Origin: Nocardioidaceae bacterium
GTDB taxonomy: Bacteria > Actinomycetota > Actinomycetes > Propionibacteriales > Nocardioidaceae
Reading direction: 5' to 3'
DNA: 40,368 bases
NCBI GenBank assembly: GCA_029266455.1
Contig: JAQSWV010000024.1
Location: forward strand, 1-40,368
Below are positions 4,145 through 40,100 of this stretch, piece by piece. A program made the position numbers and the translations under genes. The notes beneath the pieces are model-generated. The model searched no databases. It saw only the letters and a list, made by a program, of their open reading frames with translations, and was not told where the DNA came from. Within the stretch, counting starts at the first letter, position 1, and each line of letters begins with the position of its first letter.

Positions 4145-5365
4145 TCAGGTCCGCGAGGACCGGTCGAGATACCTGATCGCCAGCCGCCGGACGAGCCGGC
4201 TCCGGTCCATGACGCTCAGTGCCGCCAGCCGGGCCCGCGCCGCCGCCGACCTGGCGGTGCTGGCGATCGTCGAACCCGCGTCAGCAGCGGCCGGCTTGTT
4301 GTTGCGGGACCTCCACCACAGATCGGCGTACGCCTCGACCACGGTGCCGAGGGCGGTCAGGGCAGCGTCGGCGACCTCGTCGGGTGCGGCGGTGTCCGGC
4401 CGGGAGGCCATGCCGACACTGGGAGGAGGAAGCAGGTCCGCCAGGTCTCCGACCACGTGGTACTCGCGGCTTCGCAACACCTCGACCGTGGCGCTCGCGC
4501 GCTCGGTCACCCAGCCACGCTCGTCGTCGGGAAGACTCATCGTTCCCCGCCCACGGTCCTGCAGCGCCGGCCGGACCCCGTTCGCCACGACCCGGGTGTA
4601 CTGACGCTCGTTCAGCCGGTCGCCCAGCGAGGTGTTCAGCCGGCGCAGCACCTCCACCTCGGCCGCACCCATCGACACGTTCCCCCGGTAGTCGCCGATG
4701 GCAAGCCAGCCCGGGTCAAGCCGGGTGGCAGTGGCGAAGCGTTGCACCAGGAGCTCCGGAGGCGACCCCGGCGGGGGGACCGTGACGACGTGGACCCGTC
4801 CGCGGGGAACCTCTCGCTCCCAGATCTCGAGCACGCGTGCGACGTCCTGACGCAGCCAGAAGGCCACGCCGGCGCTGGCGGGCCCCTGCTCCGGATCGCG
4901 GACGGCGGTGGCGTACTCGTCCCACCGCCAGCTCCGGCCCTTGGCCAGCTCCTGCTGCCAGGCACCGACCAGCACCCGTGCGAGGTCGCGGACGGTGACC
5001 ACGACATGCACGGGCGCCGGAGCGAACGCCCGCACCGCCTGCCGCACCTGCCGGGGCCGGGCGAAGGCGAAGAACTCCTCGGACACCACGGCGTGTGAGC
5101 CGCTCCACGCGCGCACCTCCCCCACCAGCGCCTCCCAGGCGCCCACGACCTGCGGCCGCTCGGCGCCGCGGGGACGGCGTCCCATGAGGTCCCAGGCGGC
5201 CAGGTTCTGCGACATCTGCCGGGGGCCGGGCACGAGCACACCGTGCTCGGCCAGCTGTCGGCGACTGTTCCACAGGGTGCTCTGCAGGTACGAGGTGCCG
5301 CTCTTGGGTAAGCCGATGTGAAGAAACACGGCCGCTGCCGGCGCATCGGTGTCGTTCGCATTCAT
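4145..5365 (-). CDS. Sulfotransferase-like protein
   Basis: 406 residues, cytosolic. The N-terminal [15 protein letters not shown] (about residues 14-28) is the 5'-phosphosulfate-binding loop of PAPS-dependent sulfotransferases, preceded by a beta strand. A later stretch, [14 protein letters not shown], resembles the 3'-phosphate-binding region, where an Arg followed by Asp and a downstream Ser are usual. The acceptor is unknown. The C-terminal 60 residues are Ala/Arg-rich helix with no domain I recognise. The ATG at 5365 has GGAG six bases upstream. It starts 29 bp after the DUF3017 gene on the same strand, so it may be the last gene of the folD operon, and it converges with mdh. Confidence 0.82.
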
Positions 5366-5394
5366 ACGGGCTCCAGGCAGGCTTCTGCGCGAGG

Positions 5395-5694
5395 CTAGGG
5401 AAGGGGCGGTCGGTCGGGTATCAGGTAGGCCAGCACCAGCAGCACGGTGCCCATACCGGTGGTCACGAGGACGTCCGACGTCGCCCGGCGGACCCTCAAC
5501 AGGCCACTGTGACGCTCGGGCAGCACGGTGCGGGCGAGTGCGCCGACCAGAAGGACCGCGCCGAGCATGCCGATGCCGAGGCGCCAGGGACCGAAGGCGA
5601 GGACCGCAAGGCCGAGGACACAGGCCGTGACCTCGAACGCGAAGACGAGGGTGCCTGGCTGCACACGGGTACGACGGGACCGGGTCGGGCTCAT
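5395..5694 (-). CDS. DUF3017 small membrane protein
   Basis: 99 residues with three predicted transmembrane segments (about residues 16-35, 38-55 and 77-92) and a basic N-terminus [10 protein letters not shown]. It matches the actinobacterial DUF3017 family, which typically lies directly downstream of folD. The ATG overlaps the folD stop (ATGA, 5691-5694), so translation is probably coupled to FolD. No catalytic residues are visible and the function is unknown. Confidence 0.88.
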
Positions 5695-6551
5695 GCCGGG
5701 TCGTCGAGCATCCGCTCCGCGGCCTCGACGACGTTGCTGAGCAGGAGGGCCCGGGTCATCGGCCCGACGCCACCGGGATTCGGTGAGACCCAGCCGGCCA
5801 CCTCCCAGACGTCGGCGGCGACGTCGCCGAGGATGCCGTCGGCTCCCCTGCTGACACCGACGTCGAGGACCGCCGCCCCCGGGCGCACCATCTCGGCGGT
5901 GATGATTCCCGGGACCCCGGCCGCGGCGACCACGATGTCGGCGCGGCGTACCTCGGCGGCCAGGTCGCGCGTCCCGGTGTGGCACAGGGTGACCGTGGCA
6001 TTCTCCGACCTGCGGGTGAGCAGCAGCCCGAGTGACCGGCCGACGGTGACGCCGCGGCCCACGACGCACACCTGGGCGCCGGCGATCTGTACGCCGTGGC
6101 GTCGGAGCAGCTCGACGATGCCGTGCGGGGTGCAGGGCAGCGGAGCGGCCTGGTTGAGCACGAGCCACCCGAGGTTGGTCGGGTGCAGGCCGTCAGCGTC
6201 CTTCGCCGGGTCGATGCGACCCAGCACCGCGTTCTCCTCCATGCCCTTCGGCAGCGGCAGCTGCACGATGTAGCCGGTGCAGGCGGGGTCGGCGTTCAGC
6301 CGATCGATCTCGGCCTCGACCTCGCGCTGCGAGGCCGTGGCGGGCAGGTCCACCCGGATCGACTCGATGCCGACCTCTGCGCAGTCCTTGTGCTTGCCGG
6401 CGACGTACCAGCGGCTGCCGGGGTCATCCCCCACCAGCACGGTGCCGAGCCCCGGTGCCACACCGTGGTCGCGCAGTCGCTTGACCCGCCCGGCGAGCTC
6501 GGACTTGATCGCCGCCGCCGTCGCCTTGCCGTCCAGGGTCGCAGCCGTCAC
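5691..6551 (-). CDS. folD: Bifunctional methylenetetrahydrofolate dehydrogenase/cyclohydrolase
   Basis: 286 residues. Interconverts 5,10-methylene-, methenyl- and 10-formyl-tetrahydrofolate, making the formyl donor used by the PurN and PurH encoded just upstream. Motifs seen are YVAGKHKDC (catalytic Lys), [27 protein letters not shown], the NADP-binding VGRGVTVG, and the C-terminal [10 protein letters not shown] chose the GTG at 6551 because GAGGAT lies about seven bases upstream and the N-terminus ([10 protein letters not shown]) then matches the family. The frame is open further upstream, but that part is Ser/Pro/Arg-rich antisense shadow of purH. Confidence 0.95.
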
Positions 6552-6615
6552 GGCGGCATCCTCGCACGCCGGCGCCACGCCCACGCCCGCCTCCCGCGCC
6601 GAGTGGCACGGCAGT

Positions 6616-8202
6616 TCAGTGGAAGAAGTGCCGCGCCCCGGTGAGGTACATGGTCGCGCCCGCGGCCTGGGCGGCCGCCACGACCTCGTCATCGCGGACC
6701 GACCCTCCCGGCTGCACGACAGCGCGCACGCCGGCGTCGAGGAGCATGACCAGCCCGTCGGCGAAGGGGAAGAAGGCGTCCGACGCGGCGACGGCTCCGG
6801 CGGCCCGCTCACCGGCGCGGGCGACGGCCAGGCGCGCGGAGTCGACCCGGTTGACCTGGCCCATTCCGACGCCCACCGACGCCCCGCCGGCGGCCAGCAG
6901 GATGGCGTTGGACTTCACCGCCCGGCAGGCGCGCCAGGCGAACGCAAGGTCGGCGAGCGTCTGCTCGTCGGCGGCGGGGCCGCTCACCAGCTGCCACCCC
7001 GCCGGCCGGTCGCCCGCTGCGTCGACGGCGTCACGGTCCTGCATCAGCATGCCGCCGGAGATCCCGCGCAGCTCGGTGCCGCCGCGGCCCGCCGGCGGAA
7101 CGCGCAGCAGCCGCACGCTCTTCCTCCCGGCCAGCAGGTCCACAGCGGGCGGCTCGAAGTCGGGGGCGGCCACCACCTCGGTGAACACCTCGGCGACCTG
7201 CTGAGCCATCGCAGCGGTGACCGGGCGGTTGACCGCGATCACGCCGCCGAAGGCCGACACGGGATCGCACGCGTGCGCCTTGCGGTGTGCCTCGGCGACG
7301 TCGGCACCGACGGCGATCCCGCACGGGTTGGCGTGCTTGACGATGGCGACGGCCGGGTCGTCGAAGTCGTACGCCGTGCGGCGCGCCGCGTCGGCGTCGA
7401 CGAAGTTGTTGTACGACATCTGCTTGCCGTGCAGCTGCTCGGCCTGTGCCAGGCCCGGGTCGGGGACGAACCCCGAGCGGTACAAGGCGGCCCGCTGGTG
7501 CGGGTTCTCGCCGTAGCGCAGCACATCGGCGCGCTGCCAGGTGGCGCCGACCCAGGCCGGCCAGCCGGTGCCGCCCGAGGTGTCGGCCAGCGCGTTGCCC
7601 ATCCAGGAGGCCACGTGCACGTCGTAGGTCGCCGTGTGCGCGAACGCCTCCGCTGCCAGCAGCTGCCGCTCGGACAGGGTGAGCCCGCCCGCGCGCACGG
7701 AGCCCAGCACGGCCAGGTAGCGCTCGGGGGAGACCACCACGGCGACACTGGGGTGGTTCTTGGCGGCCGCTCGGACCATCGCCGGCCCACCGATGTCGAT
7801 CTGCTCGACGCACCCGTCCGCGGACGCCCCCGACAACACTGTCTCGGTGAACGGGTAGAGGTTGCTCACCACCAGGTCGAACGCCTCGATGCCGAGCTCT
7901 GCCAGCTGGTCGCGGTGCGAGTCGAGGCGGAGATCCGCGAGTATCCCCGCGTGCACGCCGGGGTGCAGCGTCTTGACGCGCCCGTCCAGGCACTCGGGGA
8001 ACCCGGTCAGCTCCTCGACCGATGTGACGGGGACGCCTGCCTCGGCGATGCGCGCAGCGGTCGACCCGGTCGAGACCAGCGCCACACCGGCCTCGTGCAG
8101 ACCGACGGCGAGAGCCTCCAGACCGGTCTTGTCGTACACCGACAGCAGCGCCCGGCGTACGGTCCGGCGCCCCTGGTCCGGTGCTGTCCGTCCTGGGCTC
8201 AT
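6616..8202 (-). CDS. purH: Bifunctional AICAR formyltransferase / IMP cyclohydrolase
   Basis: 528 residues. Catalyses the last two steps of de novo purine synthesis, AICAR to FAICAR to IMP. The N-terminal MGS-like IMP cyclohydrolase domain shows [31 protein letters not shown] and SNLYPF. The C-terminal transformylase shows [16 protein letters not shown] with the catalytic Lys-His, and DAFFPFADG. The ATG at 8202 overlaps the purN stop (ATGA), which fixes the start and implies translational coupling; an in-frame start 33 bp upstream would lie inside purN. Confidence 0.97.
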
Positions 8203-32231: not shown

Positions 32232-32654
32232 TCAGGCGTTGATGGCCTCGCGGCCGCTCTCGCTGCTGCTGACCGTGATCTTGCGAGGCTTGGCCCGCTC
32301 CGCCACGGGGATGCGCAGACTGAGCACGCCCGCGTCGTAGCTCGCGGCGATGTTCTCGGTGTCCAGGGTGTCGCCCAGGATGAGCTGGCGGCTGAACACC
32401 CCGCGTGGGCACTCCGCCGCGACCATCTCCTGGTCGCCGGAGCGAGCCGGGCGCTCGGCCCGTACGGTCAGCACGTTGCGCTCGACGTCCACGGCGATCG
32501 AGTCGGGGCTGACGCCGGGCAGGTCGAGCTCGACGACGAACTCCTCACCCTCGCGCCACGCATCCATCGCCATCGCCGCCGGCCGCGTGGTGGTGCCGAA
32601 GATGTGCTCGGCGAAGCGGTCGAGGTCACGGAACGGGTCGGTGCGCATCAGCAT
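32232..32654 (-). CDS. Hsp20 (alpha-crystallin) small heat shock protein
   Basis: 140 residues, ATP-independent holdase. Short N-terminal arm [20 protein letters not shown], then the alpha-crystallin domain (about 40-130): [29 protein letters not shown] and [15 protein letters not shown], with the C-terminal extension KPRKITVSS. The GGAGG nine bases before the ATG at 32654 fixes the start; the open frame upstream lies in the promoter region. Divergent from an HspR-like MerR regulator, which probably controls it. Confidence 0.94.
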
Positions 32655-32748
32655 CGTTGTCCACCTCCATCGACAGAGTCGGTGCTCCGGCCCGCCGCCA
32701 GGAGAACCTGGACCGAGACCAGAGATCTGTGACGGCGGATCTAGATTT

Positions 32749-32778
32749 TTTGTATCACACGTGACAGTGTTGGTGCAA
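32749..32778 (-). promoter_or_regulatory. Candidate hsp20 promoter with internal dyad
   Basis: On the minus strand TTGCAC (32773-32778) and TACAAA (32749-32754) are separated by 18 bp in the only AT-rich patch nearby. The spacer holds TCAC-GT-GTGA (32755-32764), a small dyad adjacent to the -10 where a MerR/HspR-type repressor could bind. No match to the classic HspR HAIR sequence was found. Confidence 0.35.
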
Positions 32779-32814
32779 GACATACCAGCGTGAGGATCGT
32801 CGTACGGAGGGATA

Positions 32815-33204
32815 ATGGGCACCGATCCGTCCGGACCCGCGCCCTCGGGCCACGAGAGCGACCGCGGCGTCTACGGGATCTCGGTGGCAGCCGACCTGGT
32901 GGACATGGGTACGCAGAACCTGCGGCTCTACGAGCGTCGGGGGTTGCTGGAACCGGACCGGACCGACGGCGGTACCCGACGCTACAGCGAGCAGGACCTG
33001 GCCCGGCTGCGCCGCATCGGCGAGCTGCTCGACGCCGGTCTGAACCTGGCGGGAGTGGCCCACGTGCTCGAGCTCGAGTCGGACAACGCACGGCTGCGCG
33101 ACGACAACGCCCGGCTGCGGCACATGCAGCCCGCGGACAGGCCGGTGATCGACGACTCGGCGGGTGGCAGCGATCCGCACGCCGCGGCACCCTGGGATCG
33201 ATGA
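32815..33204 (+). CDS. MerR-family regulator, HspR-like
   Basis: 129 residues. MerR winged helix-turn-helix at about 19-88: [20 protein letters not shown] then [12 protein letters not shown] and [16 protein letters not shown], the order typical of HspR. A C-terminal leucine-rich coiled coil ([18 protein letters not shown]) mediates dimerisation. There are no cysteines for metal sensing. GGAGGG lies a few bases before the ATG. Divergent from hsp20 and overlapping the next small gene, so a local repressor or activator of the heat-shock unit is the likely role. Confidence 0.91.
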
Positions 33205-34281: not shown

Positions 34282-35139
34282 TCAGCCGTTGCCGGGCAGC
34301 GACCCGTCGACCGCGTCCACCTCGGCGACCGATGCTGCTCCGTTCGCCGTGTGCGGCGCAGCTCCGGGGGTGGCCCCCTGATCCTGCCTGATGGCTGACA
34401 GGAAGGGACCGACGATGTCGAGGGGGAGCGGAAAGACCACCGTCGAGTTCTGGTCGGCTCCGAGCTCCAGCAGTGTCTGCAGGTACCGCAGCTGGAGCGA
34501 CGCCGGGCTCGCAGAGAGGGTGTCCGCTGCCTGGCGGAGCTCATCCGAGGCCTGGAGCTCGCCCCGGGCGTTGATGATCTTCGCCCGCCGCTCACGTTCG
34601 GCTTCTGCCTCCCGCGCCATCGCCCGTTGCATGGCCTCCGGAATCTCCACGTCCTTGATCTCGACGACCTCCACCTGGACCCCCCACGGTCCGGTCTGGT
34701 TGGCGATGCTGTCGCGCAGGTCCTCGTTCAGGTCCTGCCGATGCGCCAACAGGGTGTCGAGATCGGCCCGCCCGACGACGGAGCGCAACGTGGTCTGCGC
34801 GATCTGCGACGTGGCGACGGCATAGTTCTCGACGGACATCACGGCTCGGACGGGGTCGGTGACCTTGAACATCACCACCGCGTTGACGCGTGCGGGCACG
34901 TTGTCCTTGGTGATGACCTCTTGCGGGGGGATCATCAGGGTGACGACGCGCAGGTCCACCCGGATCAGCTTCTCGAATCCCAGCATCACCAGCTTGACAC
35001 CCGGCTCGAGCGGTGGGCGAAGGCGCCCCAACCGGAAGGCAACGCCGCGCTCGTACTCGCGCAGCACCCTCAGGGACATCACCAGGTAGGCGACGAGAAC
35101 GACGACGACCGCGAGGACGAGGAACCCAGCGAGGCTCAT
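34282..35139 (-). CDS. SPFH/stomatin-like (slipin) membrane protein
   Basis: 285 residues. N-terminal hairpin helix (about 5-25), then the band-7/SPFH domain: LREYERGVAFRLGR, PGV, VTLMIPPQEVITKDNV and TTLRSVVGRADLDTLL, followed by a coiled coil (AMQRAMAREAEAERERRAKIINARGE region) and a C-terminal oligomerisation part. Stomatins scaffold membrane microdomains and modulate membrane complexes. The ATG at 35139 has AGGAG nine bases upstream and overlaps the stop of the preceding gene (ATGA), so it is the third gene of the norB unit. No partner NfeD-type gene is adjacent. Confidence 0.93.
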   Translation of the reverse strand: MSLAGFLVLAVVVVLVAYLVMSLRVLREYERGVAFRLGRLRPPLEPGVKLVMLGFEKLIRVDLRVVTLMIPPQEVITKDNVPARVNAVVMFKVTDPVRAVMSVENYAVATSQIAQTTLRSVVGRADLDTLLAHRQDLNEDLRDSIANQTGPWGVQVEVVEIKDVEIPEAMQRAMAREAEAERERRAKIINARGELQASDELRQAADTLSASPASLQLRYLQTLLELGADQNSTVVFPLPLDIVGPFLSAIRQDQGATPGAAPHTANGAASVAEVDAVDGSLPGNG

Positions 35140-35789
35140 GACGGTGTGCTCCTTTTCCATTCCGGCTGCGACGCCGACTCCGGCTTGGGGGACGGGAAGG
35201 ATCCCCACCGAGTGGCGAACCGATCCGACGGCTCGGCCGGGAGGCCGAGGGCCGGCTGCCGGGCTACGTGGTCCGGGAATCCGGCCGGCGACCGGCGCAG
35301 ATGCCGCCAGAGCGGCCAGCTGGCTACCGCGGCGAGCAAGGAGGCCAGCACGAGCGCGCCGGCCTCCGCGACAGGACGACCCACCGCGAGGGCGAGGGGG
35401 AGCAGGACCGCAAGCGCAGTTGCCGAGCACGCGATGCCGCGGTGGAAGCGTCCGGCTTCCGAGTGCGGCCACGGGTCGACGTTGCGAATGACCTCGCGCC
35501 CGCTGTCCGACCCGGTGCATGCCTGCTTGACCGGACAGCTGTTGCAGACCGTGGGGTTGGCGCGGTAGCGCATCACCCGGTTCTCCGGGTCGAACGCCTC
35601 GGGCCAGAGCCACTGGTCTTCCGGACACACCCACGCGTCGTGATCCTCGTGGTAGCGGAAGGTGCCGCTCCGCCAGTCGGTGGTGTGTCGCGACGCACGT
35701 CTGGCGAGAAGGTCCAGTCCGTACGCGGCCGCGACGAGGAACGCCGCATAGGCCGACCCGAGCCACACCGTTGTGCTGAGGTCACCCAT
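35136..35789 (-). CDS. Membrane protein with conserved-looking cysteine cluster, norB-linked
   Basis: 217 residues, not recognised. TM helix at about 9-28, a cytoplasmic or periplasmic domain (30-115), then two TM helices (about 118-137 and 142-160) and a Pro/Ser-rich tail. The middle domain has WVCPEDQW (Cys55) and VCNSCPVKQAC (Cys82, Cys85, Cys91) plus His47, His50 and His109, which could hold zinc, heme or an Fe-S cluster. The start overlaps the norB stop by 8 bp and the stop overlaps the SPFH start by 4 bp. A nitric oxide reductase accessory or electron-transfer role is inference. Confidence 0.85.
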   Translation of the reverse strand: MGDLSTTVWLGSAYAAFLVAAAYGLDLLARRASRHTTDWRSGTFRYHEDHDAWVCPEDQWLWPEAFDPENRVMRYRANPTVCNSCPVKQACTGSDSGREVIRNVDPWPHSEAGRFHRGIACSATALAVLLPLALAVGRPVAEAGALVLASLLAAVASWPLWRHLRRSPAGFPDHVARQPALGLPAEPSDRFATRWGSFPSPKPESASQPEWKRSTPS

Positions 35790-38229
35790 CGCCTTGACCC
35801 TCGTCGTCCCGCCGCTCCGAGCGCCACCGGCTCTGCTCCGAGGCCCGCAGGTCCAGCTCACCCACGCGCGCGTCCGACCCGTACGACGTGCTCTCCGGCC
35901 GGCTCGCCTGCGAGCCAGCCGGCTCGAGCTCCGTGTACAGCGCCTCGATCGGCACGTCGAGAGTGGTCGCTGCGCGGGTATGCCGCACACCGAGCCATGC
36001 GATCCACAGGAACGGCAGGACGCCACCGATCATGAAGATCAGGTCTCCCGGCATCCGCAGCCATTCCAGAGCGGCGTTGCCCGGCTCGGTGACGAAGGCG
36101 AGGGTCCTTGCCTCGAAGTAGCCCTCACTCACCGAGTGGTACAGCTGGACGACCCCGAGAGGCAGCAAGGTGGCGAACAGCATCCATGCCAGCCCGATGT
36201 TGAGGGACCAGAAGCTGATCTTCGCCAGCGTGTCCGGCCATAGTCGCTCAGGAATGAGGTAGCGAAGCGCGAACAGTGCCAGGCCGACACCCATCATCCC
36301 GTAGACGCCCATCATGGCCCCGTGCGCGTGATTGGACGTGAGAGCGGTGCCTATCTGGTAGTAGGAGACGATCGGCAGGTTGACCAGGAAGCCGAAGACG
36401 CCGGCGCCGAGGAAGTTCCAGAAGCCGACCGCGACGAGGAACATCACGGCCCACCGGTGGGGGAACGGCGATGTGCTCGACGCCTCCTGCCGGGACCCGA
36501 GCTGCAGGAAGCTCCACGCCTCGACGGTCAGGAACGTGAGCGGGATGACCTCGAGCGCCGAGAAGAACGCACCGAGCGCCATGTGCTCGACCGGCGTGCC
36601 GGAGAAGTAGAGATGGTGCATCGTGCCGATGACGCCGCCGACGGAGTACAGGATGACGTCGAGGAAGATGACGCCGAGGGCGATCCGCTGCCGGACCACG
36701 CCGAGCATCACGAAGATGTAGGCGACCATCACAGTCGTGAACAGCTCCAGGAAGTCCTCCACCCACAGATGGACGACCCAGAACCGCCAGAACTCCGCAA
36801 CGGTCAGGTGCGTGTCGGTGCCGGCAAGCATGCCCACCGAGTAGAAGGCGGGGATCGCCAGACCCGCGAAGAAGAAGAGCCAGGGCATGTTGACCCGCGA
36901 CTCCGTCTTCAGCCGCGTACGAATAGCACGGAAGATGATGATGATCCATATGAACAAGCCCGCAGAGAGCAACACCTGCCACACCCGTGGGAGGTCGAGG
37001 TACTCCCACTGCTGATCGAACAGCGGCGACCCCTTGGCCCAGTCGACGCCGTGAATCGAGAGTGCCTCACCGGTCAGGCTGCCGGCCACCACCAGGGCCA
37101 CCGCAGCGAGCAGGCCATAAGTCAGCCAGTGCTGCCGGCGTGGTTCCCGGCCGGAGACGAACGGCGACAAGAAGATGCCGGCCGCGAGGAATGACGCAAC
37201 CGTCCAGAACAGCGCCAGCTGCACGTGCCAGGTGCGCGCGAGGTTGAACGGCAGGAGCTGCGCCAGATCGAAGCCGAAGAAGTCACCCACCTCGGCCCGG
37301 TAGTGCTCGGCCGCCGCGCCCACCAGTGTCTGCAGGAGGAACAGGGCGGCTACCACGAAGAAGAACCATGCGGTCGCCCGCTGGGCAGGGGTGATCCCGA
37401 CATCGTCTGGCTGAGTGAAGGAGATGCTCGGCGCTTCCTCGCCGTGCCATCCGAGCTTGCGGCTCCAACGTCCGTAGACGGCGAAGAGGGCGCCGGTGCC
37501 GACCAGCAGCGCCACCAGTGACAGCACGCTCCACACGATCACGTCCGCAGTGGGGCTGTTGTCCACCAACGGCTCAGGGGGCCAGTTGTTGGTGTAGGAG
37601 TACGGCAGGTCCGGCCGCTCCGCAGCAGCAGCCCACGCCGTCCAGCCGAAGAACGCGGTCAGCTGGTGGATCTCCTCGGGGTCGGTGATGGCCTCGGGGA
37701 TCAGTCCGTACTGGGTGGTGACGGAGCCGAAGTACTCGGCGTAGTGCTGCTGGTTGGCCTCGAATGCCTCCACTTGGAGCTCGGTCCACTCCAGGTCACC
37801 TGACTGCTCGTCGTACCGGTTGGTCCGGAACTCCTCGACCAGAGCGGCTTGCGGGTCGGGCGCACCGCTGGCCTCGATGTCGGCCAGCGCGTACTCGGCG
37901 GACCGGCGCAGATAGTCGGCCGTCCAGTCCGGGCCGAGGTAGCCGCCGTGGCCCATGATGGAGCCGTACTGCTGCAGCCCGCGACGCAGGAAGATCTGCT
38001 GGCCGGCGGTGATGTCGTCCCCGCTGAACACCTCCTGACCCGTCGGATCCACCACTCGCTCCGGCTGCGGCATGGAGTCCGTGTAGGTGCGGAACGCCAG
38101 CAGGCCCATGACGGTGAAACCGAACAGCATCACCAGGGCCACTGCCTGCACCCACGTCTTGGACACCAGCATCGGGGTGCGCGACGGGCCAGGTGTCCTC
38201 GGTCCCGTCTCTTCTCGGACCTCGCTCAC
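35782..38229 (-). CDS. norB: Quinol-dependent nitric oxide reductase
   Basis: About 815 residues: NorC-like N-terminal extracytoplasmic part (about 45-230, no CxxCH so no heme c, as in qNOR) fused to a heme-copper oxidase-like core of about 12 helices. Putative ligands: His335 (ARTWHVQ), His487 with Glu491 (VVHLWVED), the His538-His539 pair (GTMHHLYF) and His634/His636 (SNHAHGAMM). Reduces 2 NO to N2O with quinol; detoxification or denitrification. The start is uncertain: GTG at 38229 chosen, ATG at 38172 possible, neither with a good Shine-Dalgarno. Confidence 0.95.
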   Translation of the reverse strand: MSEVREETGPRTPGPSRTPMLVSKTWVQAVALVMLFGFTVMGLLAFRTYTDSMPQPERVVDPTGQEVFSGDDITAGQQIFLRRGLQQYGSIMGHGGYLGPDWTADYLRRSAEYALADIEASGAPDPQAALVEEFRTNRYDEQSGDLEWTELQVEAFEANQQHYAEYFGSVTTQYGLIPEAITDPEEIHQLTAFFGWTAWAAAAERPDLPYSYTNNWPPEPLVDNSPTADVIVWSVLSLVALLVGTGALFAVYGRWSRKLGWHGEEAPSISFTQPDDVGITPAQRATAWFFFVVAALFLLQTLVGAAAEHYRAEVGDFFGFDLAQLLPFNLARTWHVQLALFWTVASFLAAGIFLSPFVSGREPRRQHWLTYGLLAAVALVVAGSLTGEALSIHGVDWAKGSPLFDQQWEYLDLPRVWQVLLSAGLFIWIIIIFRAIRTRLKTESRVNMPWLFFFAGLAIPAFYSVGMLAGTDTHLTVAEFWRFWVVHLWVEDFLELFTTVMVAYIFVMLGVVRQRIALGVIFLDVILYSVGGVIGTMHHLYFSGTPVEHMALGAFFSALEVIPLTFLTVEAWSFLQLGSRQEASSTSPFPHRWAVMFLVAVGFWNFLGAGVFGFLVNLPIVSYYQIGTALTSNHAHGAMMGVYGMMGVGLALFALRYLIPERLWPDTLAKISFWSLNIGLAWMLFATLLPLGVVQLYHSVSEGYFEARTLAFVTEPGNAALEWLRMPGDLIFMIGGVLPFLWIAWLGVRHTRAATTLDVPIEALYTELEPAGSQASRPESTSYGSDARVGELDLRASEQSRWRSERRDDEGQGDG

Positions 38230-38451
38230 CCCACGGATTGTCGACCAACGTCCTGCCCCAACGTGCGAGGCCGCCGCAGATCGGCGTGTCCTCGCCGCAG
38301 CCCCGTCTCTGCCGCTCCACGAGCAGACCACCGCCGGTGCGGAGTGCAGCAGGCGAGAAGGTCCTCGCGCCGTCGGCGGTCCTGCTCTGCGGCCGCGGTC
38401 CTTCGGCTCTTCAGGCCGGACGCTGTTGCTCGAGCGCCGGCCGAGAGCCGG

Positions 38452-39609
38452 CTAAGGCGTCGGGGCCGGGTCTGGCCGAGTGGCCGCGAGCCTGTCGGCG
38501 TACTTGGCAAGGAGCGGTCCGCTGATTCCGAGGATCACCACGTAGGCCGCTGCCAGCGGTCCGATCTCGGTGTAGCCGGCCGATACGGCGAGCTCTGCGA
38601 TGACGATCGAGAACTCGCCTCGCGCGATCAGGGCAGCCCCGGCGCGGGCGCGTCCGCGCGACCCGACACCGTCACGGCTCGCGGCGAACATCCCGGTGCC
38701 GACCTTGGTGACCGCGGTGACGGCAGCAAGGAGCAGGGCGACCAGGAGGTACGGTCCGAGCTCGCCAGGCGCCGTGTGCAGCCCGAAGGACAGGAAGAAC
38801 AGGGCGGCGAACAGGTCCCGCAACGGCTTCAGCACACCGCGTGCACGCCGGGCGGCGTCCTGCGGGATCGCCAAGCCGACAAGGAATGCGCCCACTGCCG
38901 CCGACGCGTCCACGAGGTAGGTGAGGCCCGACACCAGCAGCATGACGCCGACGACGCGCAGCAGCACCTGCTCGTCGTCGCCATGCCCGATCATGCGACC
39001 CAGATGATGACCGAACAGTCGCGCGGCAAGGAGCACAGCGGCGACCACGGCTACTGCGGCCACCACGTTGCCCGTCGCCACGAGCGCCGTCCCTCCCGAG
39101 AGCACGACCACCAGGAGGGGGAGGAACACCGCCATCGCGATGTCCTCCAGCACCAGGACGGACAGGATGGACGGGGTCTCCCGGAATCCGGTCCGTTTCA
39201 GGTCGGACAGGAGCCTCGCCACGATTCCGGACGAGGAGATCCAGGTGATGCCGGCAAGGGCCAGGCACGCCTGCCAGTCGTAGCCGAGCAGGAGTCCGGT
39301 GGCGAACCCCACCGGGGCGTTGAGGACGAGGTCGACCAGCCCGGAAGGCGTATGGCGTCTCAACGAGGCAGCGAACTCCGCCGCCGAGAACTCCATCCCC
39401 AGGAGCAACAACAACAGCAGCACACCGAGCTCGCCGGCCACCTCGATGAACGAGGTGGACGCGCCGAGGTCGTGGATGCCGCCCTCTCCCAGCAGGAGGC
39501 CGGCGAGGAGGAACGCGGGGATCGCTGACAGACCGAGACGACCCGCGACGTTGGCCAGGGCCGCGAGCAGCAGCAGGATGACGCCGAGCTCCAGCAGGAA
39601 GGCATCCAC
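38452..39609 (-). CDS. khtU: CPA2-family cation/proton antiporter (KhtU-like)
   Basis: 385 residues, about 12 transmembrane helices and no cytoplasmic RCK domain. CPA2/KefB features: LELGVILLLLAALANVAGRL, LGVLLLLLLLGMEF, the broken-helix region GITWISSSGIVARLL, and ARGEFSIVIAEL in the late core. The preceding gene encodes the matching soluble KhtT-type regulator, so K+/H+ (or NH4+/H+) antiport as in Bacillus KhtTU is likely. A GCCGGC-loop-GCCGGC hairpin overlaps the stop codon. Confidence 0.9.
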   Translation of the reverse strand: MDAFLLELGVILLLLAALANVAGRLGLSAIPAFLLAGLLLGEGGIHDLGASTSFIEVAGELGVLLLLLLLGMEFSAAEFAASLRRHTPSGLVDLVLNAPVGFATGLLLGYDWQACLALAGITWISSSGIVARLLSDLKRTGFRETPSILSVLVLEDIAMAVFLPLLVVVLSGGTALVATGNVVAAVAVVAAVLLAARLFGHHLGRMIGHGDDEQVLLRVVGVMLLVSGLTYLVDASAAVGAFLVGLAIPQDAARRARGVLKPLRDLFAALFFLSFGLHTAPGELGPYLLVALLLAAVTAVTKVGTGMFAASRDGVGSRGRARAGAALIARGEFSIVIAELAVSAGYTEIGPLAAAYVVILGISGPLLAKYADRLAATRPDPAPTP

Positions 39610-39620
39610 GAGTGCGGCGC

Positions 39621-40100
39621 CTAGCCCTGCAGGATCTTGCGCACGCCGTCGATGCCAGACGTCGTCCCCACTACGACCAGCAGATCACCACTGCGGAGCA
39701 CCTCTGCCGGAGTGGGTGAGGCGAGCACCCGGTCCCCACGAACCACTGCGACGATCGAGGCACCGGTGAGCGTACGCGAGCGGGTCTCGCCCAGTGGCTG
39801 ACCATCGAAGCGCGAGCCGGCTGGGACCTCGAGGGTGCCAGAGACCAAGCCCGGGATCTCGCGAGTGAGGTCCGCGAAGCGCTCCACGATTCGAGGGGCA
39901 CCGAGGATCTCGGCAACGGCGTCCGCCTCCTCCCGGGTCAGCGTCAGCAACGTCTCGGGAGCGTCCGGGTCACTGCCCCCGTAACGCACGAGATCGAACT
40001 CCCGGTCCCGTTTGGCCACGATGCCGACGCGATCGCCCGAAGAGGTCGGGAACTCGTAACGGACACCCACTCCTGGCAACAGGATCTCGGTAACGTCCAT
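39621..40100 (-). CDS. khtT: KhtT-like antiporter regulatory subunit (TrkA-C/RCK_C domain)
   Basis: 159 residues. The N-terminal half (MDVTEILLPGVGVRYEFPTSSGDRV is the first strand region) matches KhtT-type proteins. The C-terminal RCK_C/TrkA-C domain spans about 85-159, with PLGETRSRTLTGASIVAVVRG and LRSGDLLVVVGT. In Bacillus such subunits gate the antiporter and bind c-di-AMP; binding here is not shown by sequence. Eleven bases separate its stop from the khtU start. Confidence 0.9.
   Translation of the reverse strand: MDVTEILLPGVGVRYEFPTSSGDRVGIVAKRDREFDLVRYGGSDPDAPETLLTLTREEADAVAEILGAPRIVERFADLTREIPGLVSGTLEVPAGSRFDGQPLGETRSRTLTGASIVAVVRGDRVLASPTPAEVLRSGDLLVVVGTTSGIDGVRKILQG

Follow-up and report, generated by a model that had tools for sequence, protein, structure and literature searches.

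Organization of the locus

The stretch of DNA analyzed here (the window; 40,368 bases, one entire contig) is contig JAQSWV010000024.1 of a Nocardioidaceae bacterium. On its minus strand, at 34282-38229, it carries a run of three genes encoding a predicted quinol-dependent nitric oxide (NO) reductase (qNOR), NorB; a membrane protein here named MID; and a protein of the SPFH/stomatin type (Table 1). The norB stop codon lies 8 bp within the start of the MID gene and an ATGA is common to the MID stop and the SPFH start, giving overlaps of 8 bp and then 4 bp; a preliminary description of this DNA, made by a model from the sequence alone, had given the coordinates, the strand and both overlaps correctly. 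An alternative GTG upstream, at 38331, would yield a NorB of 849 residues. The association of a qNOR with dedicated partners in many actinobacteria, presented below, suggests that the enzyme works in a purpose-built membrane assembly.

Table 1. Features of the norB-MID-SPFH locus and their positions in the window
Feature	Position	Strand	Remarks
norB, qNOR	35782..38229	-	815 aa from the GTG at 38229; PF22085 and COX1 matches
NorB C-tail motif Y-G-S-D-A-R, residues 783-788	35866..35883	-	window's version of Y-[AG]-S-D-R-R
MID, three-helix membrane protein, 217 aa	35136..35789	-	lies between norB and the SPFH gene
MID Cys domain, residues 39-119, predicted cytoplasmic	35433..35675	-	homolog of the IS1182-family transposase Cys region
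Four invariant Cys of MID	35517..35627	-	Cys55 (35625-35627) to Cys91 (35517-35519)
MID C-tail motif T-R-W-G-S, residues 193-197	35199..35213	-	counterpart of T-S-Y-A-S-D-R-R in relatives
SPFH/stomatin-type gene, 285 aa	34282..35139	-	Band_7, 1e-38; human stomatin, 2.4e-62
SMP, two-helix small membrane protein, 94 aa	33975..34259	+	in the window, oriented convergently to norB-MID-SPFH

NorB as a quinol-type NO reductase

Within a single chain, NorB gave Pfam matches to NorB_cytochrome_c-like (PF22085; 7.8e-53, residues 56-218) and to COX1 (3.3e-51, residues 285-730), and its nearest relatives in a search of solved structures are annotated as NO reductase subunit B (E-value 3e-156). Alignment to the solved NorB proteins revealed that the motifs RTWH (332), HLWVE (487), HHLYF (538), ALEV (558) and HAH (634) are kept; these are presumably the metal ligands and the region of the catalytic Glu. 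Judged by its domains and closest solved relatives, the protein is a full-length qNOR, and quinol-driven reduction of NO is predicted for it. With enzymes of this type, electrons come from quinol, and the haem b3-FeB site is located nearer the outer face of the membrane.

The available part of one source describes qNOR (NorZ) as expressed from a single gene, with no helpers for FeB insertion (PMC9976466). The NorB of the window resembles it in having the full domain set and the metal-site motifs, but differs in that a partner gene follows norB, as it does in 17/17 of the loci with a full-length qNOR in the class sample introduced below. A clade-wide partner departs from the description of qNOR as a self-sufficient, one-gene enzyme.

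Conservation of the unit

The gene order was followed in 80 loci, the best 80 of 197 MID relatives found by scanning genome contigs with a MID alignment, with start codons at the junctions chosen by script. norB lies directly upstream of the MID gene in 79/80 and the SPFH gene directly downstream in 80/80; the exception, L078, is cut by the end of its contig, and at a further locus, L060, the norB match is no more than a short one. norB and the MID gene overlap in 44/79 loci, and in 78/79 they either overlap or are no more than 9 bp apart; the MID and SPFH genes overlap in 74/80. The earlier view of one conserved, coupled unit was thus borne out, and the search for homologs and their neighbours that had been recommended with it did not find the middle protein mostly away from norB. 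Actinobacterial names are carried by 79/80 records, the remaining one being a contig of a metagenome-assembled genome (MAG) labelled Acidobacteria (L085); its NorB clusters with Propionibacterium and Ornithinimicrobium rows, and it is probably mis-binned. Two copies of the unit occur under the labels Mycolicibacter sp. MYC340 (L049 and L060, in one of which the norB match is short) and Mycobacterium, the latter a MAG (L031 and L047).

As the 80 loci represent the most similar relatives, even samples of the phylum and the class were added; several genomes of the class sample are also among the 80 loci. Among 98 genomes of relatives, 10 gave a match, eight of them, the window included, with a MID proper, and norB precedes and the SPFH gene follows in 8/8; L009 and L010 from this search were dropped. 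Within the phylum sample (396 genomes), the MID profile matched 18: nine with MID, three of these incomplete (helix 1 is missing in G405 and in-frame helices 2-3 in G281, and the contig end truncates G459), and nine with the Cys region only, which were not counted as MID although one also has a weak tail match. A NorB domain was found in 11 genomes of this sample, namely nine qNORs and two N-terminal frames lacking the remaining enzyme (G236, 357 aa, locus L137; G230, 372 aa, locus L136; both excluded from full-length counts), and MID and qNOR occur together in seven. The class sample (394 genomes) gave a NorB domain in 18, at full length in 17. A Cys-bearing MID adjoins 15/17 of these, with the SPFH gene beside 14 of those 15, and the other two have a MID-family protein without the cysteines. 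G281 was counted as a qNOR despite a break in its NorB frame near the N-terminus; at this locus (L133, approximately 4700-7570) MID keeps the Cys domain, lacks helices 2-3 and has its tail in another frame.

In NorB trees, all carriers of the MID family form one clade, with support from the SH-like approximate likelihood ratio test (SH-aLRT) of 99 in the first tree and values of 99/98 in the second; outside it fall two actinobacterial qNORs together with seven (first tree) or three (second tree) others. The two of the same phylum, G140 and G346, have neither MID nor SPFH. The seven others, qNOR loci on plasmids or megaplasmids of Pseudomonadota, Thermodesulfobacteriota and a haloarchaeon, gave no tblastn match to MID or SPFH at E 0.1 within flanks of 2.5-4 kb; at this threshold tblastn was negative for all nine qNOR loci outside the MID clade. 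Since its carriers form a single NorB clade and the MID-less qNORs lie outside it, MID marks a qNOR lineage.

The Cys domain of MID and its kinship with transposases

Helices were modelled by AlphaFold2 (AF2) at residues 6-40, 108-135, 140-156 and 158-166 of MID. Over 80 MIDs, Lys plus Arg residues average 0.04 ahead of helix 1 and 4.2 behind it, 1.9 ahead of helix 2, 0.4 in the loop between helices 2 and 3, and 1.5 beyond helix 3. With basic residues to either side of the Cys domain and almost none at the N-terminus or in the helix 2-3 loop, this domain and the C-terminal tail should be on the cytoplasmic side of the membrane.

The cysteines noted in the preliminary description, Cys55 and a C-x2-C-x5-C cluster, are present as stated and form the pattern C-x26-C-x2-C-x5-C (Cys55, Cys82, Cys85, Cys91). 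Their conservation, on which that description had made its proposal depend, was found to be complete: all four, together with His50 and His116, are kept in 81/81 proteins (the window and the 80 loci), and His47 in 74/81. One pattern used in the scan contained Cys55, and hence only the conservation of Cys82, Cys85 and Cys91 is free of selection bias.

The middle protein had also been called unrecognised, which does not hold for its Cys region. Residues 33-109 match positions 347-422 of the 488 of NCBIfam NF033551 (IS1182 transposases) at 3.3e-11, with all four cysteines aligned. NF033551 was matched by 52/52 MIDs tested and Pfam DDE_Tnp_1_6 by 51/52 at E 0.01, with the window MID under the curated cut-offs of both; its NF033551 score is 42.8 against a cut-off of 270, short of the whole-protein level, compared with 345 and 340 for two true IS1182 frames. 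An hhalign comparison of the MID Cys region with 12 long frames that the phylum search had yielded, of which two were scanned and both proved to be IS1182 transposases above the cut-off, gave 99% and a score of 100.5, against 8.2-31.5 for 20 shuffles in which the Cys columns were held fixed. By these alignments, the Cys region of MID is homologous to the IS1182 transposase segment beyond the cysteines themselves. The likeness is confined to the Cys segment shared with NF033551 and DDE_Tnp_1_6, and in MID, unlike the transposases, membrane helices lie on either side of it. Long frames with a MID-like Cys region recur in genomes of group f21 (G467, G396, G405 and others), and those of L102 and L105 are IS1182 transposases. 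Viral contigs gave 44 pattern matches, none of them a relative, and two plasmid records matched MID, one annotated as an IS1182 transposase and one unannotated.

A second family considered was WhiB. The available part of PMC6282962 places the cysteines of the helical protein WhiB1 at 9-37-40-46, a spacing nearly equal to 55-82-85-91 in MID within the same C-xn-C-x2-C-x5-C arrangement. However, MID is membrane-bound, the window MID lacks the G-V/I-W-G-G turn, and the hhalign comparison (24%, score 23.9) fell within the range of 20 shuffles against the same WhiB profile (8.3-24.0), on which homology was rejected; the Pfam WhiB score of the window MID is 15.9 bits against a cut-off of 23.6, and 1/52 MIDs matched at E ≤0.01. 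Among structures, Foldseek searches with models of MID and of its Cys domain gave no match at E 0.001; the best VIA-align Z-score was 3.3, with three chains of NrdR, a zinc-ribbon protein, at the noise level of 2.4-2.8. Comparison of MID with the sequences of solved structures yielded nothing convincing.

That the Cys domain holds a WhiB-like, NO-sensing [4Fe-4S] cluster and regulates NorB turnover or SPFH docking seems possible rather than probable. It would accord with the WhiB1-like spacing (PMC6282962, in part) and with the C-x2-C-P-V-x3-C core, which recurs in two EndoIII-type loops of the source genome that are Fe-S loops by family name. Set against it are the non-significant WhiB profile similarity, the weak NrdR zinc-ribbon matches, and a low-confidence AF2 model of the Cys domain that is rich in strands where WhiB1 is helical. 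As the ligand, [4Fe-4S] and zinc appear about equally probable.

MID-family proteins without the Cys domain

At three loci, G816, G582 and a Streptomyces plasmid (L198), the place of MID is held by a protein of 109-129 residues in which a short linker replaces the Cys domain; helix 1 and helices 2-3 are kept, and a W-P-H-S/T-E motif occurs in two of the three. Against the MID profile this set gave an hhalign value of 98.1% and a score of 87.3, compared with 14.4-29.0 from 20 block-shuffles. Taken singly, the values were 96.5% (Streptomyces), 97.3% (G816) and 59.6% (G582), the last so low that assignment of this protein leans on its position and length as well. Together, the alignments place the three in the MID family. 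Their loci form one NorB clade (100/99) beside the Cys-bearing G303 and G281 (86/71), and a tree that groups all Cys-bearing MIDs together was not rejected by the approximately unbiased test (p-AU 0.228); loss of the Cys domain and its ancestral absence both fit. The region upstream of norB on the Streptomyces plasmid includes an Rrf2 gene at a distance of 3.6 kb and, at 2.6 kb, a gene for a truncated haemoglobin.

The SPFH gene, too, is not constant. norB and MID occur without it in G303, G281 (with broken genes) and G443, and together with the gene for SMP, a small membrane protein, in G658. Judged by the SPFH-less loci and the Cys-less proteins, the constant pair is NorB and the three-helix protein, with the Cys domain a plug-in rather than a requirement of the pair.

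These loci bear on two accounts of MID. The first, that of the preliminary description, is that a redox metal centre in MID supplies the active site of NorB with electrons, or protects it directly, within a fixed complex of three proteins. The invariant cysteines, the conserved His residues and the tight coupling of the genes fit such a centre, but the Cys domain is predicted to be cytoplasmic whereas the electrons of qNOR come from quinol and its haem b3-FeB site faces the outer side, Cys-less proteins stand beside full-length qNORs at three loci, and G303, G443 and G658 have no SPFH beside MID; a feeding role is unlikely, and the account as a whole very improbable. The second is that MID helps to assemble NorB or delivers iron to it, as a functional stand-in for NorQ and NorD, which insert FeB in the cytochrome c-dependent enzyme (cNOR), with SPFH providing quality control. 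Its appeal lies in the synthesis of MID, a membrane-bound protein with a cytoplasmic Cys4 domain, directly after NorB, and in the existence of such factors for cNOR, where helper genes norQD(EF) adjoin norB in a similar manner (PMC9976466, available part). This role is nonetheless unlikely: qNOR reportedly needs no helpers (same part of PMC9976466), the metal-site motifs are kept in the window NorB, and Cys-less MIDs exist. NorQ is an AAA+ and NorD a VWA protein, neither domain being found in MID, SPFH or SMP.

The SPFH protein and the shared C-terminal peptide

In the SPFH protein the Band_7 domain follows an N-terminal hydrophobic segment, and the match to human stomatin, its nearest solved relative, covers residues 3-248. 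Human stomatin is described in the available part of PMC12344292 as a 16-mer ring, which points to a many-subunit SPFH ring. A stoichiometric complex, which had been deduced from the tight gene coupling, is therefore unlikely as far as SPFH is concerned, and SPFH is moreover missing from several norB-MID loci. The arrangement recalls SPFH-NfeD operons, in which a membrane protein with a cytoplasmic domain is likewise encoded directly before SPFH (PMC2636767 and PMC11222466, available parts); it differs in that an enzyme gene comes first, NorB and MID share a tail peptide, and no NfeD family was among the Pfam or NCBIfam matches of the window MID up to E 1. The likeness of MID to NfeD is one of position, not of sequence.

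The shared peptide is of the type S-R-Y-A-S-D-R-R in NorB and R-R-T-S-Y-A-S-D-R-R in MID. In 1.57 million six-frame residues of the 80 loci, the pattern Y[AGS]SD[RH]R has 53 matches. NorB frames at 26 loci account for 26 of them and MID frames at 23 loci for 25; SPFH has none, and of the remaining two, one is near MID on its strand and one elsewhere. One MID tail (L064, 990-1760) has three tandem Y-A/S-S-D-R-R copies. A DNA-pattern search of six whole genomes, which covered the serine codons in part, found four matches; the sole two in G488 (5 Mb) are the NorB and MID tails, both YASDRR, and a third is the MID tail of G018. The codons of the motif vary, indicating that selection acts on the peptide. 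In another branch, of mycobacteria and others, MID has T-R-W-G-S/G and NorB no motif. A joint pattern for the MID tail, composed like the other tail patterns after the tails had been seen, fits 78/81 SPFH-neighboured MIDs, 9.7% of shuffled tails and 0/8 SPFH-less MIDs (G281 excluded), a contrast lessened by the three very short tails of the Cys-less proteins and that of the G405 gene, which lacks helix 1, among the eight. Five of six additional SPFH-neighboured tails from the class sample also fit. G658, nested in the motif clade, has SMP and no SPFH, and the motif is in neither its NorB nor its MID tail; with the distribution of the motif, this joint loss suggests that the tails dock to SPFH.

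A proposed NO-reducing assembly

An assembly specific to this NorB clade, in which NorB and its dedicated partner MID would be docked by their tail peptides onto an SPFH scaffold, is given an even chance of being correct. Its core would be NorB and the MID made right after it, in contact and with MID most likely an accessory subunit or stability factor. The Cys4 domain between helices 1 and 2 of MID, kin to the Cys region of IS1182 transposases but newly used, and predicted to be cytoplasmic, would probably hold a metal or Fe-S site with a role in sensing or structure rather than in the feeding of electrons. As an outer layer, an oligomer of the stomatin-type SPFH protein would gather NorB and MID through their cytoplasmic C-tails (T-x-Y/W-A/G-S; Y-A/G-S-D-R-R) into an NO-reducing membrane microdomain, of which SMP may be a further, optional part. 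An extended form of this proposal, a miniature NO-reducing membrane organelle in which the stomatin-type ring captures NorB and MID by the C-tail tag and the transposase-derived Cys4 domain, if it binds [4Fe-4S], senses NO in the cytoplasm and thereby controls the docking or turnover of the reductase, is rather unlikely.

Beyond the limits of the tail patterns given above, a number of observations weigh against the proposed assembly. One of the four DNA-pattern matches, in G069, lies elsewhere, and three of the six genomes, including that of the window, have none. Three MIDs (L071, L076 and L089) only nearly match the joint tail pattern, and in G495 SPFH is present without the MID tail motif. 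The Y-x-S-D/Q pattern is lacking from 49/79 NorBs; L011 is among these only through its form TYGSDD, and the Mycobacterium/Mycolicibacter branch is truly without it. The distribution of SPFH, motif and SMP is confounded by descent, and the sole nested loss is G658. Confidence of the AF2 model is low in the Cys domain, with block means of 43-53 within MID and a mean of 62 for the domain alone. Finally, in G405 (L134, 2146-2661) the MID gene lacks helix 1 and no norB is found on the 5-kb contig; this gene may represent a remnant, or else an error of the assembly.

The preliminary description knew of no NO reductase system with this composition, and none was found in the literature searched, in wider searches among the top-ranked papers; this literature covered few subscription papers and is thus weak evidence of absence. 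Within it, no paper paired NO reductase with SPFH, or with stomatin and Actinobacteria, and one, unrelated, paired it with flotillin. The words SPFH, stomatin and slipin are absent from the available text of PMC13332983, which treats an actinobacterial qNOR, as is "nitric" from the available parts of PMC2636767 and PMC2258279 on prokaryotic SPFH proteins. If the partner, the SPFH neighbour and the shared tag are what they appear to be, a client of a bacterial SPFH scaffold could be named from sequence. The MID Cys region would also exemplify the reuse of a transposase domain within a membrane protein of respiration, and the system has a bearing on how actinobacteria detoxify NO and release N2O.

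Neighbouring genes

SMP, for which no Pfam match was obtained at E 0.01, is encoded in 34/80 loci, on the same strand directly after SPFH in the relatives; its convergent orientation in the window, as opposed to the collinear one of those 34, indicates a local inversion or re-insertion. It is present in 30/30 loci with the NorB tail motif and in 3/49 without, L011 being one of the three. SMP was considered as the reader of the tail motif and is disfavoured relative to SPFH on a single case, that of G658, which keeps SMP and lacks both SPFH and the motif.

No further neighbour is general to the loci. Frames upstream of six loci matched DUF1349, TfoX_N and, in one, a GAF/HisKA_3 sensor kinase, with three giving no match. 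As lower bounds (4.5 kb were available on both sides in 68/80 loci), a GAF-type sensor kinase is near the unit in at least 25/80, a NarL-type response regulator in at least 31/80 and an Acg-family FMN oxidoreductase in at least 27/80. All 25 loci with the kinase are labelled mycobacterial, and in L055 (10193-13775) and 24 other mycobacterial loci all three genes are near the unit. These neighbours resemble the DosRS hypoxia/NO system and its regulon, which would be in keeping with a role of the unit in NO metabolism.

Co-regulation can also underlie operon linkage, a further point against the proposed assembly: the products may be unrelated NO-stress proteins that share an operon and never touch. 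The sensor kinase and response regulator near the unit in the 25 mycobacterial loci are in keeping with this and make regulation of the island likely. Against it, gene order and overlaps are the same across many actinobacterial families, the unit is restricted to a single NorB lineage, and the tail peptide hardly occurs outside NorB and MID; mere co-regulation is considered quite improbable.

Elsewhere in the window, genes for a Na/H-exchanger-type transporter and a TrkA_C protein lie in tandem upstream of norB (38452-40100, minus strand), corresponding to an antiporter of the CPA2 type whose regulatory subunit is a separate protein. At 32232-33204, an HSP20 gene on the minus strand adjoins an HspR-like gene of the MerR type on the plus strand.

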